A stretch of 16,764 nucleotides of DNA from contig JANXXG010000310.1 in the NCBI GenBank assembly GCA_025350745.1, positions 1 to 16,764 of the forward strand, given 5' to 3'. The notes beneath the pieces are model-generated. The model searched no databases and was not told the DNA's origin. It saw only the letters and a program-made list of their open reading frames with translations. Within the stretch, counting starts at the first letter, position 1; each line of letters opens with the position of its first letter. This DNA is from Chloroflexota bacterium. Its GTDB lineage: Bacteria; Chloroflexota; Limnocylindria; P2-11E. The translations under genes were made by a program, and so were the position numbers. Shown one piece after another: positions 1-9,619 of the stretch.

Positions 1-2906
1 GCCGTGGCTCCACCGAACCAGTGGATGTAGCTCGCGAGGTAGACGCCGACCGGGAAGATGGCGAATGACAGGAACAGGAACGCGGCGTTCAGTCCCTTCC
101 GGGCAAGGAGGTCGAGTGGTCCGCCGGTGCCCGGGCGGCCGCGCTCGTACGCGTATGCGGTGACCGCGAGCGACACGACAAGGACGCCGGCCAGGGCGTA
201 GAACGACGCCCACTTGGACGCCGCGCCCAGGCCGAACAGGGCACCCGCGATGAGCAGATCGGCCCACGATGAGAGCCGCGGACGGTGGGCCGCGACGATG
301 AAATACCAGCCCGCGACGATGAAGAGCCCGACGTAGATGTCGTTCATGCCGATCCGGGCCTGCGCGAACATCGACCCGTCCAGGACGACGACGACCCCCA
401 CGAGCACGGGGATGATCCGGGACCGGAACAGCCGGCTTGCGAGCAGCACGAGCATGAACGCGAGCAGCGACCCGGCGATGACCCCAGGGAGCCGCCACGA
501 CAGGGCGAGCCGTCCGGTCTCGATCCGCTCCGCGGTCCCTGCACCGACCGCGACCAGCGTGTCTCCAGTGGTGTCGACCCCGAGCCGGGTCCCGCTGCTC
601 GGGATCGCCGCGAACGGTGAGAGGCCGTGTACGTCGACCACGACCACTCTCCCGTCAGCGACGGCGTAGAGGAAGTCGGTGCGCGGCACGACCGTCATCG
701 CGGTCACAGCCGCCGCAAACGTGCCGGTCCTCGCATTGGCAAGCGGCACGGTGTCCTTGTGGCCATCGTTGACGTCGATCGAGTCGAGGACGGGCTCGTC
801 CGCGCGAGCGAGCACGATCGCGCCGGGACCCTGGGCGAACGCGATCGCGCGCTCCTTGGCCACGCCCGGATAGACCTTCGATTCGGTCAAGGTCGCGGGG
901 TCGAGCACGTGCACCGACCCGGTCGGGTCGAGGACGTAGAGGTCCGAGCCGTCCAGCTTGCTCGCGAAGCCGATGGCCGGAACATCAACGACGACTGGAT
1001 CCGCGGTGATGGACGGGAACGAGGCGGTCCACGTCGCCGTGCCGACGATCACCCGGCCACGGACCACGGCGAACGCGGTGACGGGCCCCGGGCGCGGCAA
1101 TGCGTGGAATGCGAGCCCTTGTCGGAGGGGCTCGCGCGAAGCGCGGGTCACCAGATCGAACGCAAGGTCACCCACCTCGTCCTTTGTGACGACGTACAGA
1201 TGATCGCCGTCGACCGCCATCGCGATCGGTGCGGCGAGCATCGTCGCAAGTCGCCGCGGGTCGGCGCCGTTCCGATCGCGCAGCTGGATCGTGCCGTCGC
1301 TGAGGCCGTAGACCCGCGTGCCGTCGTTGGAAACGGTGAAGGCCGTGACATTCGCGGGTGCGGGCTCGCTGCCGGTCACGCGGTCATCGCCGAACGCGAG
1401 AACGCCAAGGGCCATGATCTCCTTCGCGAGGTGCGGGTGCGTCCATTCGTAGGGGTCCCGTTGGGCCAGGAGCTCGAACGCCGTGCGCGCGTGATAGACC
1501 TCGTCGAAGTACATGTCGCGCGGCCAATCGAGCCGGAACCCGCGACTCCCGAGGACCACGAGCCCCACCATCACCGCGAGGGCGAGATCGCTCCGCATCG
1601 CCGGTCCCCCGATCGAGAACGCCGGCGGCAGCGTCCACCGCGTGCCCGCCGCCACGGGTGGCGTCCCGGCCACAGGCGTCGCCTCGGCGCTCGGCGCGAG
1701 GCTCGCATCGCCGGCCAAAAGGAGGAAGCAGCTATAGAGCGCGAGCCCGAGCAGCGCGACCGCGAGGACGACCTGCCCGGGTCGGGTGAAGATCGTTGCC
1801 TCGAGCCACGGCGGTGCGAGCAGGTCATCCTGCGGATATCGGGTGAACGCGAAATAGAGGGTCAGGAAAAAGCCGCCGGCGATCAATAGGTACGGCACGA
1901 GCACGCGACGCCGGGCGACGGCGAACGGCAGCAGCAGGACGAGCGCCGGGAAGAGGTAGCGCTCGTGTGCGCGGGTCGGCAGGAAGTAGAACGCCATCAC
2001 CGCGACGGCACCGGCCGCGATCAGCGCCGCGGTGTCTCGTCGCCACCAGAGTGGGACCACCGACGCGACAAGACCGAGCCCGAGCAGGATCGCGCTCGGG
2101 ACGAACCATCCGGCGTCGTCCTTCCAGAAGTCGAGGAAGATGCTCGGCAGGTTGAACGCATACAGGGACGAGTACGGGTACGTCTCGGACGCGCTGCGAA
2201 CGAGCCCGATGAACGCACCCGGGGTCATGCCGAAAGGCAGCGCGAGTAGGAGCATCGTGACCGCGGCGGTCCCCGCCGCCCGCGCGATCGCGCCACGGTC
2301 GCTCGACCGGATCGTCTCGACGAGCGCCGCGACGAGCACGACGCCGAGCACGAGTCCGAACTGCGGCTTCGTCATCGTCGCGACGCCCGCGAGCAGGCCC
2401 GCGAGCGTCCAACGCCTCGAGCCCGCCGCGATCAGGGCGGCGAGGAACGGGAGCGTGCCAACGGCGTCGACCTGGCCCCAGTACGGACCGGCGAAGATCG
2501 GTGCCGGCTGCAGCATCCAGATACCCGCCGCGAGCACCGCGGCGGTCTCGCCGCCGTACCGTCGCACGAGCGGCACGAGCAGCAGCACGATCCCGATGTC
2601 CGCCGGGATGCTGATCGCCTTCACCGCGAGTCGCAGGAGGTCGCCGTGGAACACGGTGCCCAACAGCCAGAGGACATAGAGGAACGCGGGCGGGTAGTCG
2701 CTGAAGTAGCCCGGCTCATAGAACCGCGCGGGGCCGACCGAGGCGAGCTTCTCGGCCCAGGCCATGAACGTGCCGACATCGGATGGGAACCCCGCGGTCC
2801 GGATGACGAGGAGCCGGAGAACGACGCCGACGATCACGACGGCCGCGATCGCGATATTCGCGCGGCGACGCGCCGCTGCCGTGCGATCTTCCGCCGCGTC
2901 CGTCAT
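1..2906 (-). CDS. Fused GT-C glycosyltransferase: Gpi18-like half plus PMT-family protein O-mannosyltransferase with inserted beta-propeller (partial at 3' end)
   Basis: The reading frame is open from the ATG at 2906 to the left edge (968 codons, C-terminus missing). Residues 1–400 look like a Gpi18/mannosyltransferase-type GT-C membrane protein: hydrophobic segments throughout, YPP near 71–73, GQVD at 144–147, TKPQF at 179–183 and HERYLFP at 314–320. A Pro/Ala-rich linker (403–430) leads to a second GT-C protein of PMT type: DEVYHA at 468–473 (Asp-Glu of the catalytic loop), HPHLAKE at 490–496, SWRLPG at 804–809, DGSMFAQARIGMND at 843–856 and ASKW near 900. PMT enzymes transfer mannose from a polyprenyl-phosphate donor to Ser/Thr of exported proteins at the outer face of the membrane. 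Between the HPHL helix and the WR motif lie about 295 extra residues with repeated short beta-strands (VYGLSDG, LYVVTKD, LYVLDPTG, LYAVADG), best read as an extracytoplasmic beta-propeller. The start overlaps the upstream gene's stop (ATGA). The family assignments are firm for PMT and good for the N-terminal half. Acceptor and sugar are inferred. Confidence 0.85.
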   Translation of the reverse strand, partial: MTDAAEDRTAAARRRANIAIAAVVIVGVVLRLLVIRTAGFPSDVGTFMAWAEKLASVGPARFYEPGYFSDYPPAFLYVLWLLGTVFHGDLLRLAVKAISIPADIGIVLLLVPLVRRYGGETAAVLAAGIWMLQPAPIFAGPYWGQVDAVGTLPFLAALIAAGSRRWTLAGLLAGVATMTKPQFGLVLGVVLVAALVETIRSSDRGAIARAAGTAAVTMLLLALPFGMTPGAFIGLVRSASETYPYSSLYAFNLPSIFLDFWKDDAGWFVPSAILLGLGLVASVVPLWWRRDTAALIAAGAVAVMAFYFLPTRAHERYLFPALVLLLPFAVARRRVLVPYLLIAGGFFLTLYFAFTRYPQDDLLAPPWLEATIFTRPGQVVLAVALLGLALYSCFLLLAGDASLAPSAEATPVAGTPPVAAGTRWTLPPAFSIGGPAMRSDLALAVMVGLVVLGSRGFRLDWPRDMYFDEVYHARTAFELLAQRDPYEWTHPHLAKEIMALGVLAFGDDRVTGSEPAPANVTAFTVSNDGTRVYGLSDGTIQLRDRNGADPRRLATMLAAPIAMAVDGDHLYVVTKDEVGDLAFDLVTRASREPLRQGLAFHALPRPGPVTAFAVVRGRVIVGTATWTASFPSITADPVVVDVPAIGFASKLDGSDLYVLDPTGSVHVLDPATLTESKVYPGVAKERAIAFAQGPGAIVLARADEPVLDSIDVNDGHKDTVPLANARTGTFAAAVTAMTVVPRTDFLYAVADGRVVVVDVHGLSPFAAIPSSGTRLGVDTTGDTLVAVGAGTAERIETGRLALSWRLPGVIAGSLLAFMLVLLASRLFRSRIIPVLVGVVVVLDGSMFAQARIGMNDIYVGLFIVAGWYFIVAAHRPRLSSWADLLIAGALFGLGAASKWASFYALAGVLVVSLAVTAYAYERGRPGTGGPLDLLARKGLNAAFLFLSFAIFPVGVYLASYIHWFGGAT

Positions 2907-4129
2907 TGCCACCAGCCATACCGGATGATCGCGACCGTCGCGTAGATGTTGAACGCGATGGCGATCGCAGTGGCGACGAGGAACAGGATGGACGGGCGTG
3001 ACCGCCACACCCCGTTCCGCAGCGCGTCACCGCTCACGGCGAGCGCGACGAGGAACGGCTGCGCGTCGATGCTGAAGCGGTAGCCGAGCTGCCCGAAACC
3101 GACGGTCGCGTGAGTGACGTCGGGAATGAGCGCGAGACCCGCGGCGAGGGCGGTCGCTGTGACCGCGGCCGACCGCCGCGCGCCTTGAAGGCCGGCGAAC
3201 GCATAGAGGAGCGCCGGTGTCGTGAGGAACAGGCCCATGCCGGCGAAGCGTGGACGAAGGAAGTACCAGACGTTCGGCACGAAGTCCGGTGGCTCCATGA
3301 AGATCGCGTAGAAGTGGCGAGGGAGGTAGGAGAGCGAGAACAGCCCGTGATCGAAGAAGAAGTCACCGTCGGCGAGTCGCACATAGCCCGCATCGCCGAT
3401 CGTGCCCCAACGCAGGATGTTGTAGCCGGCATACACGATCAAGAGCGGGACCCCGCCCGCGATGACGCGGACCAGGGTGCGCGGGAATGGCGCACCAGCG
3501 CGCCGCGCCGCGAGCATCGCGAGCGCTGGCACCACCGCCGCGACCGGCAGGCGGGCGAGCGCGGCGAGGCCGATCGCCAGGCCGATGCCCCACGCCGCAC
3601 CGCCCCGCGCAGCGATCAGGAACGCGACGGACGTGAAGAGCATCGCGACGGCGTGCGCGGCGAACCACGCGCGGCCATCGGCGCTCGTGAACAACAAGGT
3701 CGTGCCGAAGGCCGAGAGGAGCGCGCCGGTCAGCGCGACCCAACGTGGGGCGCCGTACGCGCGGAGCGCGAGATAGAGGACGCCGGCGGATGCGCCGCCG
3801 CAGATCTGCGACACGACGTCCTGCGCGGTCGCGGTCCCGAGGAACAGGAGTGGGATCGCGAGGACCGCCGGAAGCGGCGGGTACGCCACACACCATCGGC
3901 CATCGCCGCAGGACAGGAGCTCGTTCAGCCACGGCGGGTCCGTGGTGAGCCAGTAGCGGCCGTGGAGGAACGCGTCAGCCAAACGGCCGTAGTAGTCGTA
4001 GACGGTGGGCGCGCCCCACCCCAGGATCAGGTAAGCGACGACGGCCAGAGCACCCACAGCGATGGCGATGGATGGTTCCCCACCCCACCACGACCGGTCG
4101 GCCGGCCCCGTCCGCCGCATGCGCATCAC
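2903..4129 (-). CDS. Multi-pass membrane protein, probable GT-C/family 39-like glycosyltransferase
   Basis: This is a 408-residue hydrophobic protein with roughly nine to eleven predicted membrane segments, the first at about 20–38. The first extracytoplasmic loop carries YDYYGRLADAFLHGRYW followed by DPPWLNE and a Cys pair (C74, C80, spaced CGDGRWC) that could form a disulfide. An acidic aromatic first loop is usual in GT-C enzymes that use polyprenyl-phosphate sugars, but I see no motif that fixes donor or acceptor. The call may start at GTG 4129 or ATG 4126. No Shine-Dalgarno is visible at either, and only 26 bp separate it from the divergent GT2 gene. Its stop overlaps the ATG of the PMT fusion gene (ATGA), so the two are probably translationally coupled and act together. 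An oligosaccharide or teichoic-type polymer transferase is a possible alternative. Confidence 0.8.
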   Translation of the reverse strand: MMRMRRTGPADRSWWGGEPSIAIAVGALAVVAYLILGWGAPTVYDYYGRLADAFLHGRYWLTTDPPWLNELLSCGDGRWCVAYPPLPAVLAIPLLFLGTATAQDVVSQICGGASAGVLYLALRAYGAPRWVALTGALLSAFGTTLLFTSADGRAWFAAHAVAMLFTSVAFLIAARGGAAWGIGLAIGLAALARLPVAAVVPALAMLAARRAGAPFPRTLVRVIAGGVPLLIVYAGYNILRWGTIGDAGYVRLADGDFFFDHGLFSLSYLPRHFYAIFMEPPDFVPNVWYFLRPRFAGMGLFLTTPALLYAFAGLQGARRSAAVTATALAAGLALIPDVTHATVGFGQLGYRFSIDAQPFLVALAVSGDALRNGVWRSRPSILFLVATAIAIAFNIYATVAIIRYGWWQ

Positions 4130-4155: not shown

Positions 4156-4881
4156 GTGACCGAACGGCTTCCGGGTCTCTCCTTCTTCTTCCCCGCCCGT
4201 GACGAGGAGCTGAACGTCGCGCCGATGGTGGCGCAGGCGCTGACCGCGCTGCCCGAGTACGCGGACCGCATCGAGGTCACGGTGATCGACGACGGCAGCA
4301 GCGACGACACCGGGAAGATCGCGGACGCGCTTGCCCAGACGGATCCGCGGGTCAAGGTCATCCACAACCGTCCCGGCCGCGGGTACGGCGGTGCGGTGCG
4401 CGCGGGTTTCATGAGCGCGACGCAGCCGTTCATCTTCTTCACCGACGGCGATCAGCAGTTCGAGGTCGCCGACTTCGGCAGACTCGTCGCGGCGCTCGGT
4501 CCGGACGTTGACGCGGTGATCGGGTACCGCATCAAGCGCGCCGACCCGTGGCGCCGCCTGCTCGTGTCGGGCGTGTACAACCGGCTCATCAAGGTGTTGT
4601 TCGCGGGCGGATGGCGCGACGTCGACTGCGCGTTCAAGCTCTTCCGCGCGGACGTGTTCACGCGGGTGCCCCTGTCACAGGTGAAGTCGAACGGCGCGTT
4701 CTTCTCTCCGGAGCTCCTCATCACGCTCCGCGCGCAGGGCATCCGGATGCGCGAGGTGGGCATCCCTCATCACCCCCGCATGCACCACGAGCCGAAAGGC
4801 GCGCCGCCGACGGTCATCATCAGGGCGATCCGGGATCTCCTGCTCCTGCGTCTTTCGATGTGGATCGACCCCGACCGATAA
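4156..4881 (+). CDS. Family 2 glycosyltransferase, polyprenyl-phosphate mannose/glucose synthase-like
   Basis: This 241-residue soluble GT-A enzyme has the features of dolichyl/polyprenyl-phosphate sugar synthases: the SFFFPARDEELNV start of the nucleotide-binding fold, VIDDGSSDDTG (DDGS at 45–48), TDGDQQFE (97–103, the metal/sugar-nucleotide Asp motif), DVDAVIGYRIKRADPWRR (117–134) and DCAFKLFR (157–164). There is no C-terminal membrane domain, so it resembles the short DPM1/Ppm1 type. It would move a sugar from a nucleotide sugar to polyprenyl phosphate at the inner membrane face. The divergent membrane GT-C genes would use such a lipid donor outside, which supports a mannosylation role. 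GTG at 4156 is the only start that keeps the conserved N-terminus. This is the only plus-strand gene left of dnaA. Glucose or another sugar rather than mannose is possible. Confidence 0.88.
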   Translation: MTERLPGLSFFFPARDEELNVAPMVAQALTALPEYADRIEVTVIDDGSSDDTGKIADALAQTDPRVKVIHNRPGRGYGGAVRAGFMSATQPFIFFTDGDQQFEVADFGRLVAALGPDVDAVIGYRIKRADPWRRLLVSGVYNRLIKVLFAGGWRDVDCAFKLFRADVFTRVPLSQVKSNGAFFSPELLITLRAQGIRMREVGIPHHPRMHHEPKGAPPTVIIRAIRDLLLLRLSMWIDPDR

Positions 4882-6839: not shown

Positions 6840-7544
6840 CTACCCGTACCGGCTGCGCTGGGTGCCGCGCGGTGTCCGGTCGCGAAGCACGAATACCAGC
6901 ACGAGGCCGGCGAAGAAGCCGAAGAGGTGGGCGAAGTACGCGACCTGATCGCTCGCGACGTGACCCGGCAGGCGCAACGACACGAACGCGTCCAGGATCT
7001 GGATGACGATAAAGAAGCCGATCACGACGATCGCCGGCAGCTGCAGCACGGTGATGAAGATCCCAAGGAAGATCAGCGTCTTGACCCGCGCGCCTGGGAA
7101 CAGCACGAGGTACGCGGCAAGGACGCCCGCGATGGCGCCGGAGGCGCCGAGCATCGGACCTGGCGACACGATCCCCTGGCCGACGGCCGCGACGACCCCG
7201 CACAGCAGGTAGAAGAGGAGATATTGGCCGCTCCCGAGCCGCTCTTCGACGTTATCGCCGAACACCCAGAGATAGAGCATGTTGCCGATGATGTGCAGCC
7301 ATCCGCCGTGCAGGAACATGTGGGTGACGAGCGGCACGAAGGTATTCACCGACCACGCGCCGCTCGCAAGGTCGGCCGTGAACCGAGACCAGTCGAACGC
7401 GTACCGGTCGTAGAACGCTTCGAGCGCACCCGGGGTCCGCTGCAGGCTCACGATGTACAGCCACACCACGATGTTCACGAACAGCAGAAGCCGATTGACG
7501 ATCGCCGGGCCGCGGGTCGGATTGGAGTCCGAGAACGGGATCAC
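6840..7544 (-). CDS. Rhomboid family intramembrane serine protease
   Basis: The 234-residue protein has about six membrane helices and cleaves membrane-anchored substrates within the bilayer. Catalytic features are all present: GASGA with nucleophile S135, the partner H206 in AYFAHLFGF, and the HIIGN pair H84/N88 that matches the oxyanion-hole His/Asn of GlpG-type rhomboids, within HMFLHGGWLHIIGNML (75–90). The VFGDNVEERLG loop (94–104) is typical. The correct start is the GTG at 7544, whose last two bases lie in the stop of the preceding gene (GTGA overlap). A longer in-frame extension to 8045 exists, but that stretch lies inside another gene and its Arg/Gly-rich sequence is non-coding in character. 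Its substrate is unknown; the single-pass propeller protein encoded just upstream is a candidate by context only. Confidence 0.93.
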   Translation of the reverse strand: MIPFSDSNPTRGPAIVNRLLLFVNIVVWLYIVSLQRTPGALEAFYDRYAFDWSRFTADLASGAWSVNTFVPLVTHMFLHGGWLHIIGNMLYLWVFGDNVEERLGSGQYLLFYLLCGVVAAVGQGIVSPGPMLGASGAIAGVLAAYLVLFPGARVKTLIFLGIFITVLQLPAIVVIGFFIVIQILDAFVSLRLPGHVASDQVAYFAHLFGFFAGLVLVFVLRDRTPRGTQRSRYG

Positions 7545-9619
7545 CGGCTGAGGTCGGTCGCCGCGATCTTCGACCCACTGGCCGTGTACACGACGCGAAG
7601 CCCCTCGGACACGAAGAATGACGTCGGCGCCGGAAGGTCGCGGGGCAGGGCGAAGCGGGCGACCTCCCGGCCGTCGCGGGTGAGCTGCACGATCCGCCTG
7701 CCGGGCGCGTCGAGCAGATAGATGTTCCGTTGTGAATCCAACGCCTGGATCGCCGTGGCTCGCACGGGCTCGCCGACCCATTTGATCGCGAAGTCGACCT
7801 TCGTCGCTGTCGTGGCGAGACCGATCCGCTTGAACAGCCCGACGTCGCCGGCCGTGGTGGTGACCCAGACGCTGCCGTCGATGGCCGCGGAGGTGATGCT
7901 GTTCGGTGCGAATGGCTGAGCGAGGACCGGGTCCGCCACGAGGAACTTGTCCTTGTCGCCCTCGTGCCGCCAGATCTGTCCGGAGGCCGCATCGAGCACG
8001 TAGAGGTTGCCGGTGAAGCTCAGTAGGCGGGTCGCGCTCTTCCACTTATCGCTCCCCGGCAGTGCGACCTCGACCACCGTGTTGCCCTCCGCCTTCCAGA
8101 TCTTGTTCTGGTCGTCCAGTGCGAAGAGCGCGTTGTCGATGGCGGCCACGAGGGTCGGGGACCCGACGCCGGCTTTCCCCTTTTGCATCACCACCCCCGC
8201 GACCGTCGTGCCTGGCGGCTGTTCGAAGATGCGCCACAGCCGGCCGCTCCCGGGGTCGGTGGCGTAGAGACCGAACTGCGTTTGGGCGAAGGTTCCGGCC
8301 TTCGCGCCCGCGGCCTGGGTGCCGAGATCGATGAGCACATCGTTCACCCGATCCGACAGGGAATCCGCGCGCGCGCTGAGCGCGGCGATCTGCGGCGCGC
8401 TCGCACCTGGCGCATTTGACGCGTCCTTGAGGTGTGCGCGGGCCGACTCGATCTTCTGGCGGGCCCGGTCCTCATCAGGGCTCGGTCTGCGATCGAGGAA
8501 GGACTGGGCGGAGTCGAGATCGGTCTGGACCGCGAGGATCGCGAGGTTGTAGCTGGCCACCACGTTGTTCGCCTGGAAGTCGCGCACGACGACTGCGCCG
8601 ATGATCAGGGAGACGCCGAGCAGCGCCACCGCGAGGAGACTGATGAGCCGCTGGCTGCGCCGACCCTGTTCGCGCGCCGTCTGCATCGGTCGACCAAGCC
8701 TCGGCGACCGGTGCGGCATCAGCTCGAGCCCGACGGCCACTCCCTTCGTGACCGCGCCGGCCGCCGGAGCGGTCATTGCCCCGACCGCCCGTCCGATCCG
8801 CGGTCGCCGCCGCCAGATCCAATCGACGCGAGAGCGAATGGTCTCGGCGACGAGCACTTCATCGGGCGGACGATTCGGCTCGGGCACCGACACGATCCGT
8901 GGAGCCGTGGTCATCGCGGGCGAGATCTCGATGAGCACCACGCTGTCGCTGCCGGTGCCGCCAGCCGAAACGAACTTCTCGTGGAGCGCTTCCGCGGCGG
9001 CCCGGGGATGGAGCGTCACCGCCGCGTTCAGCAACGCGTCGGCGCCAAGGGCCTCGATGGCCTGTCCTCCCGCGAGGATGATCGTGTCGCCTGGCTCGAC
9101 CGTCTGCTTCCAGACCGACGGCAGGAGGTCCGGGTCGCTGCCGAGCGACGCGGCGCGCCGGACCGTGGTCCGGTGCACGAAGTCCGCGAGCTCGTTCGGA
9201 TCATCTCCGGGAAGGAAGAGTCGCGCCCGGCGGACCAGGAAGATCTGAGCCTGTCCGATGTGGGCCGCATAGAGGTCGTTGTTCACGAGGACCGCGCATG
9301 CGGCATGGAGCGTGACGCGCCCACGCTGATCGCGCAGCTTCACCGCGGCGCGCCGATTCGCGTCACGCAGCGCCTTGCGCATCGCGACCTCGATACCGGC
9401 TGACAGGTCGTACTCGTACTCCTGCCGTGTGAGGTCTGCTACTTCCCGCGCGATCTCCGCGCCGGCTTTCCCCTCCGGAAGGACCTCGCACAGGAAGTAG
9501 AAGCGCCCCTTCGTGCGGAGTGTCGCGCCGAGCGCCGGCTCGCTGACGATGACGGCGTCGGATCCTGCCCGGATATCCGTGGTCGATCCGACCTTTGTGG
9601 AAAAGCCGGTCTGCCTCAC
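7541..9619 (-). CDS. Degenerate PP2C-like domain – transmembrane helix – extracytoplasmic beta-propeller protein
   Basis: The 692-residue protein has three parts. Residues 1–235 follow the PP2C/SpoIIE-type phosphatase layout: an ANRRAAVKL helix (88–96), HIGQAQIFLVR (120–130, where active enzymes have GDSR), EPGDTIILAGG (175–185, normally ...SDG) and a terminal GSDSVVLIEI (223–232, normally DNxT). The early DG motif is replaced by LCEVLPEG (43–50). The metal-binding aspartates thus look lost and the domain is probably a pseudophosphatase. A basic linker precedes one membrane helix (325–346), then a helical, coiled-coil-like segment (355–435), then a propeller of about six blades (445–690; LYVLDAASGQIW, SVWVTTTAGDVGLF, NIYLLDAPGRRIVQL). 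The topology suggests a cytoplasmic PP2C-like part and an outside sensor. The GTG start at 9619 overlaps the dciA stop (GTGA), and its own stop overlaps the rhomboid GTG. Function is unknown; signalling between envelope and cytoplasm is inferred. Confidence 0.85.
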   Translation of the reverse strand: MRQTGFSTKVGSTTDIRAGSDAVIVSEPALGATLRTKGRFYFLCEVLPEGKAGAEIAREVADLTRQEYEYDLSAGIEVAMRKALRDANRRAAVKLRDQRGRVTLHAACAVLVNNDLYAAHIGQAQIFLVRRARLFLPGDDPNELADFVHRTTVRRAASLGSDPDLLPSVWKQTVEPGDTIILAGGQAIEALGADALLNAAVTLHPRAAAEALHEKFVSAGGTGSDSVVLIEISPAMTTAPRIVSVPEPNRPPDEVLVAETIRSRVDWIWRRRPRIGRAVGAMTAPAAGAVTKGVAVGLELMPHRSPRLGRPMQTAREQGRRSQRLISLLAVALLGVSLIIGAVVVRDFQANNVVASYNLAILAVQTDLDSAQSFLDRRPSPDEDRARQKIESARAHLKDASNAPGASAPQIAALSARADSLSDRVNDVLIDLGTQAAGAKAGTFAQTQFGLYATDPGSGRLWRIFEQPPGTTVAGVVMQKGKAGVGSPTLVAAIDNALFALDDQNKIWKAEGNTVVEVALPGSDKWKSATRLLSFTGNLYVLDAASGQIWRHEGDKDKFLVADPVLAQPFAPNSITSAAIDGSVWVTTTAGDVGLFKRIGLATTATKVDFAIKWVGEPVRATAIQALDSQRNIYLLDAPGRRIVQLTRDGREVARFALPRDLPAPTSFFVSEGLRVVYTASGSKIAATDLSR

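Follow-up and report, generated by a model that had tools for sequence, protein, structure and literature searches.

Organization of the locus

The window, a stretch of 16,764 nucleotides making up positions 1 to 16,764 of contig JANXXG010000310.1 of a Chloroflexota bacterium, begins inside a gene on the minus strand (3..2906), whose frame is open from position 2906 down to 3 and runs past the window edge. This frame comprises the first 968 codons of a GT87–PMT fusion, the 3′ end of which lies beyond the window. A database protein of 1216 residues, P0001, is identical to the window protein at 967 of 968 positions, the sole difference being at residue 951, and was used as a stand-in for the whole chain. 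The features of the locus are as follows.

3..2906, minus strand: CDS of the GT87–PMT fusion, first 968 codons (open frame; P0001 twin)
1989..2696, minus strand: Pfam match to GT87, residues 71–306 (module about 1–400), with the conserved D43 upstream (PF09594)
1488..1505, minus strand: DEVYHA, residues 468–473, catalytic Asp-Glu of the PMT module (motif; 72/72 loci)
1419..1439, minus strand: HPHLAKE, residues 490–496, the HPPLxK motif (motif; 72/72 loci)
501..1388, minus strand: inserted β-propeller-like domain, residues 507–802 (profile matches, repeats, class-wide presence)
492..497, minus strand: WR, residues 804–805, start of TM2 following the insert (motif in class loci)
339..380, minus strand: DGSMFAQARIGMND, residues 843–856, with R851 and D856 (alignment with solved PMTs)
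213..215, minus strand: K898, equivalent of the phosphate-binding Lys (alignment; invariant where present)
2903..4129, minus strand: 408-aa membrane protein, possible further glycosyltransferase (weak NF047440 match)
4156..4881, plus strand: GT2, polyprenyl-phosphate-sugar-synthase-like, divergent to the fusion gene (PF00535; linkage)

Two further contigs of the same genome gave matches. Contig C15 carries a C-terminal fragment, ending in a stop of its own, that differs from P0001 at 6 positions over 374 residues, all within residues 881–911; judged by its sequence, this fragment is probably the continuation of the window gene, the differences in the overlap being strain variation. Contig C354, a further PMT-family match, was considered as a second copy and rejected: its PMT-like frame, which the contig cuts, contains a DDE stretch, and nothing in it was seen to match the insert of the fusion enzyme.

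Upstream of the fusion gene, the 408-aa membrane protein matches NF047440 at 25.8 bits (cut-off 200). Among solved chains the GT2 protein is nearest to ArnC (E = 2e-13), followed by dolichol-phosphate-mannose (DPM) synthase (3.9e-5), and because it is nearer the former, its sugar is possibly not mannose. A divergent relative of this GT2 (at least 40% identity) lies no more than about 5 kb upstream of the fusion gene at 54 of the 77 named loci described below, often separated from it by other genes; where at least 3.4 kb of upstream sequence is present, the linkage holds at 50 of 54 loci, L110, L114, L165 and L166 being without it. Beyond these genes the window covers an origin region, with dnaA, dnaN, recF, yidC and jag.

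A fusion of GT87 and PMT modules

A single polypeptide combines a GT87-type membrane glycosyltransferase module with a PMT-type (GT39-like) module, and three Pfam matches on P0001 exceed their cut-offs (GT87, 71–306; PMT, 803–958; PMT_4TMC, 974–1145). PF09594 scores 40.9 bits against a cut-off of 25, which places the N-terminal part in GT87, and D43 is invariant in alignments A1 and A5. A relative of type f5, P0121, retains a GT87 match of 26.7 bits, and Pfam lists no GT87 at E = 0.01 for two f3/f4 relatives, L037 and L050, an absence that we count against our preferred explanation. The N-terminal GT87-type module (about residues 1–400) had gone unmentioned in the initial annotation and makes the protein a two-enzyme fusion.

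The same annotation had called the enzyme a PMT, an assignment that is borne out by PF16192 (PMT_4TMC; 56.9 bits, cut-off 32.4, residues 974–1145) and PF02366 (44.0 bits, cut-off 22.7, residues 803–958), both of which place the protein in the PMT superfamily of GT39 type. Leaving the insert out does not extend the PF02366 match, the score changing from 44.0 to 43.9 bits. A PMT-core profile, A4, built from 11 insert-bearing and 19 insert-free sequences, matched four solved chains at E = 0.001 or better, all of them protein mannosyltransferases: yeast Pmt1 (2.2e-32), 9i5k (7.2e-23), Pmt4 (1.5e-21) and Pmt2 (2.3e-12). The chain 9i5k is treated here as ctPmt4, since the residues that the excerpted text of PMC12705809 names for ctPmt4 are found in it under the same numbers. 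No MIR family, the mark of a eukaryotic-type enzyme, was listed by Pfam on P0001 at E values up to 1. The NCBIfam equivalog for protein O-mannosyltransferases, NF058602, scores 28.9 bits on the protein, and 56.2 bits when the insert is left out, both far under the cut-off of 800, a shortfall that counts against our preferred explanation; the fusion protein was not filed under this equivalog.

The residues of the active site can be followed from ctPmt4 into the fusion. DEVYHA is the same motif as the FDEVH of solved PMTs, which in ctPmt4 carries F83 and D84, and HPHLAKE is the same motif as VHPPLAK/VHPPLGK, with H105 in the ctPmt4 HPPLGK; this equivalence is drawn from the motifs and from an alignment of class PMTs with outside PMTs, A4 having left the DE region of the class out of register, with its invariant columns starting at 798. 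Eight of the nine catalytic and donor-binding residues of ctPmt4 that were compared have counterparts in P0001: F83, D84, H105, D197, K244, R666, F669 and H672 correspond to F467, D468, H490, D856, K898, R1074, F1077 and H1080. The ninth, H87, is replaced by Y471, and this Tyr is a point against our preferred explanation. F467, D468 and H490 are conserved in all 72 named class loci with a readable motif, as are both members of the catalytic Asp-Glu pair and K495. D856 and K898 are found in 71 of the 72 (one gap) and R1074, F1077 and H1080 in 70 (two gaps); R851 and D856, which align with the R and D of solved PMTs, are invariant where present. TM1 of the PMT module escaped detection by hydropathy alone, and topology was therefore taken from homology. 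The PMT module has kept its catalytic residues, and it may transfer mannose to Ser/Thr.

A predicted β-propeller in the first extracytoplasmic loop

The insert occupies residues 507–802 and is flanked by HPHLAKEIMALGVLAFG and SWR. It begins 16 residues past H490, which corresponds to the phosphate-contacting His, and ends directly before TM2; hydropathy shows no membrane segment in it, and it lacks Cys. The initial annotation had placed the landmarks correctly at 468–473 (DEVYHA) and 490–496 (HPHLAKE) and gave 804–809 for SWRLPG, which lies at 803–808. It estimated that about 295 residues separate these landmarks. We count 307 residues between HPHLAKE and the Trp of WR, about 296 of which (507–802) are insert, and the PMT signature that it described after the insert, DGSMFAQARIGMND, is found at 843–856. 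Its assignment of the insert to the first extracytoplasmic loop is likewise supported, since the order of the motifs can be combined with the published loop assignment, in which the DE motif lies in the TMH1–2 loop and the MIR domain in the TMH7–8 loop (loop 4) of PMTs (PMC7759382, in excerpt). Among the 120 proteins listed, P0001 included, the distance from HPHLAKE to WR inclusive is 298–318 residues, with P0059 (254) as the exception, and from WR to DGS there are exactly 39 residues in every complete class locus. Given this near-constant length and the fixed spacing that follows it, the long loop is not a product of chance.

Profile comparisons point to a β-propeller, as the initial annotation had claimed, and solved propellers were matched in the kind of profile search that it had suggested. 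An insert profile of 27 sequences gave 138 matches to solved chains at E = 1 or better, led by 1l0q at 1.8e-16, and most of the best 60 of these 138 carry names that we take to be those of propeller proteins (WD40, YncE, BamB, RACK1). When the profile was restricted to the 19 sequences of the window's own family, 39 matches were obtained, again led by 1l0q (E = 4.4e-10) and including three DNA ligases at E of about 0.1. A six-sequence profile gave 13 matches with one clear non-propeller, an enoyl reductase at 0.17, and the reversed six-sequence profile, used as a control, gave 0 matches to solved chains. On the window insert itself Pfam finds no propeller family above cut-off and lists only PD40 (12.3 bits against 20.9).

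Self-comparison of the 27-sequence profile reveals repeats at offsets of about 46, 96, 140, 180 and 232 of 325 columns, multiples of about 41–46 columns that fit seven units. The family-only profile repeats at about 43–57, 117–128 and 207 of 290 columns, more weakly (best P = 1e-4); its best hhalign probability of 57% is modest and counts against our preferred explanation. When alignments A8 and A9 were each column-shuffled once, no repeat was left (best P = 0.44 and 0.98). The inserts of the f1 and f3–f5 types are related to one another (hhalign probability 96, E = 3.8e-9 over 230 columns). With the 1l0q match, a spacing compatible with sevenfold repetition and an empty reversed control, the insert is predicted to be a β-propeller of about seven repeats, the blade number and placement being estimates from the same profiles. 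The architecture as a whole, a propeller-type domain inserted in a PMT loop of a GT87–PMT fusion, is very probably correct as read from these alignments.

Distribution and rate of change of the insert

Homologues with an insertion at the same point, for which the initial annotation had suggested a search, were found throughout the class Limnocylindria. The insert is present at 42 of 44 motif-bearing class loci, with 291–513 residues up to the W, and at 71 of the 72 named loci with a readable motif, with 291–461 residues; the two sets overlap. The 44 loci come from a set of 51 that includes the window's own locus, those left out being a C-terminal piece (L002), four loci with GT87-part matches and no PMT motif (L029–L031 and L034), and L036 and L038, for which profile coordinates indicate a gap of about 330 residues. 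The named loci derive from a scan in which the best 80 of 566 relatives were kept, which yielded 77 loci, every one with Chloroflexi, Chloroflexota or Limnocylindrales in its title; L123, L138, L142, L162 and L170 are unmeasurable and fall outside the 72. The three exceptions, L027 and L028, which stop short of the W, and L128, which is cut off, are explained by contig ends. The insertion is thus found in every complete Limnocylindria-type locus measured. Insert-bearing PMTs may also occur elsewhere, since the scan kept only the best 80 of 566 relatives.

At the level of genomes, 60 of 61 genomes of relatives matched the fusion protein, the unmatched one (G010) being 66% complete, and 57 of 301 genomes of the phylum matched, 37 in the class and 20 outside it. 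Among the genomes listed, at least one class genome (G302) has no match; a further 224 unmatched genomes fall outside that listing. The f5 type has relatives among proteins bearing the names Candidatus Limnocylindrus and Aquidulcis, and its locus L039, in a genome of 1.1 Mb that is 92% complete (G035), keeps both enzyme and insert.

Outside the class the same loop is short. In the 20 loci of other Chloroflexota it spans 33 residues in 14 and 16 residues in 5, and in the last (L088) it was counted as 11 in a misaligned region. Listed relatives of the canonical PMT of L090 (n = 120) have loops of 16 (106 proteins), 17 (13) or 0 residues (1), and among them lie P0327 and P0337, GT87–PMT fusions above both the GT87 and the PMT cut-offs whose loop has 16 residues. 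The initial annotation had named a long loop that is ordinary in this PMT subfamily as a ground for rejecting its reading. That ground applies in part: within the class the long loop is the ordinary state, and in the other PMTs examined it is not. In an unrooted tree of the core only, with 43 rows chosen from larger sets, the 15 insert-bearing rows fall on one side of one branch (support 100/99), which fits a single origin of the insertion and does not prove it.

The insert evolves faster than the enzyme around it. Across 108 full-length homologues its mean identity to P0001 is 55.4%, compared with 80.4 and 74.6% for the PMT flanks and 67.0% for GT87; the linker at 401–435 is the fastest-changing piece of all (40.8%). 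At six f3–f5 loci the insert has 17.3–22.2% identity to P0001 and the PMT parts 46.4–56.5 and 32.5–41.1%. In alignment A8, 16 of 23 invariant insert columns lie from column residue 214 on. Such fast evolution would fit weak constraint as well.

Proposed function and alternatives

Reports available in excerpt offer precedents for parts of this anatomy. In mycobacteria a PMT is reported to start the glycan and a GT87 enzyme, PimE, to extend it, both drawing on polyprenyl-phosphate mannose (PMC12757957); the MIR domain contains sites for mannose and has been suggested to contribute to processivity (PMC12705809, PMC7759382); and in an actinobacterial PMT, where catalysis takes place outside the membrane, acceptors are proposed to be selected by a WW-like hairpin in EL4 (PMC12331936). 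On the basis of the PimE, MIR and EL4-hairpin precedents and of the anatomy, we propose a two-step O-glycosylation. The nearby GT2 would make a polyprenyl-phosphate sugar, mannose being a guess; the PMT module would move the sugar borne on polyprenyl phosphate onto Ser/Thr of exported proteins; and the GT87 module would lengthen the glycan, a step reported in mycobacteria for PimE, a GT87 enzyme on a separate chain. The propeller, situated over the active site, would dock acceptors and present their disordered Ser/Thr stretches, and would be the counterpart in this class of the roles proposed for MIR in loop 4 and for the WW-like EL4 hairpin. By analogy, then, the protein may be a coupled O-glycosylation enzyme with an acceptor-docking propeller, a reading on which our confidence is evenly divided; docking of acceptors is our best guess for the role of the propeller itself, and a finely balanced one. 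More tentative is the extension to the whole class, according to which initiation and elongation would be united in one chain and acceptor specificity set by a fast-evolving propeller in the catalytic loop.

The fusion of PMT and GT87 in a single chain would also suit a propeller that binds sugar, holding the growing glycan or mannosylated product so that the two modules act in turn, and a processivity model with mannose sites exists for the MIR domain of Pmt2 (PMC12705809, in excerpt). This role is possible but unlikely: the insert is poorly conserved (17–22% identity to P0001 at the six f3–f5 loci), unlike a fixed sugar site, and propeller-free fusions exist in P0327 and P0337. Propellers are common protein-binding platforms, and the conserved positions of the insert cluster towards its C-terminal end, beside TM2 (the 16 of 23 columns in A8, and A2), so a platform for assembly with the translocon, YidC, another envelope protein or a dimer partner, with no direct choice of acceptors, has to be weighed as well. 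We consider it unlikely too, as no partner is indicated, though yidC lies within the window.

Two other explanations carry less weight than acceptor docking. The resemblance of the GT2 to ArnC and the NF058602 score under its cut-off would agree with a PMT-like fold that decorates a lipid or cell-wall glycan in place of proteins, as ArnT-type enzymes do; PF16192, a C-terminal region named for protein O-mannosyltransferases, is nevertheless above its cut-off, and the solved chains matched by the core profile are all protein mannosyltransferases, leaving this explanation improbable. That the propeller is a tolerated passenger is very improbable. The loop does tolerate length differences, with 33 residues in 14 of the 20 PMTs of other Chloroflexota and 16 in 5, and the insert evolves more rapidly than the flanking modules, but it is retained at all complete class loci measured, including that of the 1.1-Mb genome.

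The choice of acceptors by PMTs is still discussed in the excerpted literature, where the auxiliary parts named sit in loop 4. Should acceptor docking by the propeller be correct, it would represent a third, independent solution to this choice, beside MIR and the WW-like hairpin. A loop-1 domain next to the catalytic Asp-Glu, kept at every complete class locus measured, amounts to a natural experiment, in which the insert-free fusions and the canonical PMTs provide the enzyme lacking that domain for comparison.

Comparison with known systems

In the titles and abstract openings of open-licence papers, no description of a propeller-bearing PMT architecture was found. The fungal PMTs (yeast Pmt1/Pmt2 and ctPmt4; GT39) share with the class enzyme the PMT core and its DE, HPPLxK, R/D, K and RxxF..H residues. 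What they carry in addition on the luminal side is a MIR β-trefoil in loop 4, between TMH7 and TMH8 (PMC7759382, in excerpt), whereas the class enzyme has its propeller in loop 1, no listed MIR family and a fused GT87 module. The actinobacterial MtPMT is likewise a bacterial PMT, with a lipid-phosphate-mannose donor and extracytoplasmic catalysis; the excerpt of its description proposes the WW-like EL4 hairpin for acceptors and mentions no propeller (PMC12331936), and the class enzyme reaches 28.9 of the 800 bits of NF058602. PimE is of GT87 type, like the N-terminal module, and is reported to extend mycobacterial mannoprotein glycans (PMC12757957, in excerpt) as a stand-alone protein, in contrast to the GT87 fused to PMT here. 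P0327 and P0337 have the same order of two modules as the class enzyme and, with their loop of 16 residues, no propeller. The surface-layer propeller 1l0q, YncE and the PkwA WD40 domain rank among the chains best matched by the insert profiles and, unlike the insert, are not part of a glycosyltransferase.

Length and domain variation among relatives of the GT87-PMT enzyme

The database proteins P0327 and P0337 are GT87-PMT fusions without the propeller, and P0345 and P0359 are proteins of fusion length that likewise have none; all four cluster together in the tree of the PMT core. A second length increase in families f3-f5 (L032-L051) is located between the DGS and MYWYH motifs, where the spacing is 202-378 residues, as compared with 124-150 in f1 and f2. 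In addition, the insert alignment A2 shows a further ~60-80 residues within the insert itself in all but one of its five f3 rows. The 1929-aa relative P0240 carries at its C-terminal end a domain that would provide attachment to the cell wall:

P0240 residues 1884-1928: LysM domain (E 4.1e-6)

The C-terminal piece and genes of the window

Another contig of the source genome, G000:C15 (locus L002), carries a C-terminal piece of the GT87-PMT fusion gene; a PP2C-like gene comes after it, on the opposite strand. Over 374 residues this piece differs from P0001, the near-identical full-length twin, at 6 positions, every one before 912. It is probably the continuation of the window's enzyme gene, with strain variation.

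7544-9619, minus strand: 692-aa protein; by eye, PP2C-like N-terminal half, one membrane segment and ~280-residue tail

A Pfam search of this protein returned zero matches. By eye, the ~280 residues after the membrane segment have a strand-repeat look, and this C-terminal stretch is possibly a second extracytoplasmic propeller.

2903-4129, minus strand: 408-aa membrane protein

Matches to this protein, part of them weak, occur in 36 of the 77 named loci, and it shows a weak likeness to the putative glycosyltransferases LA_3751/LA_3752.
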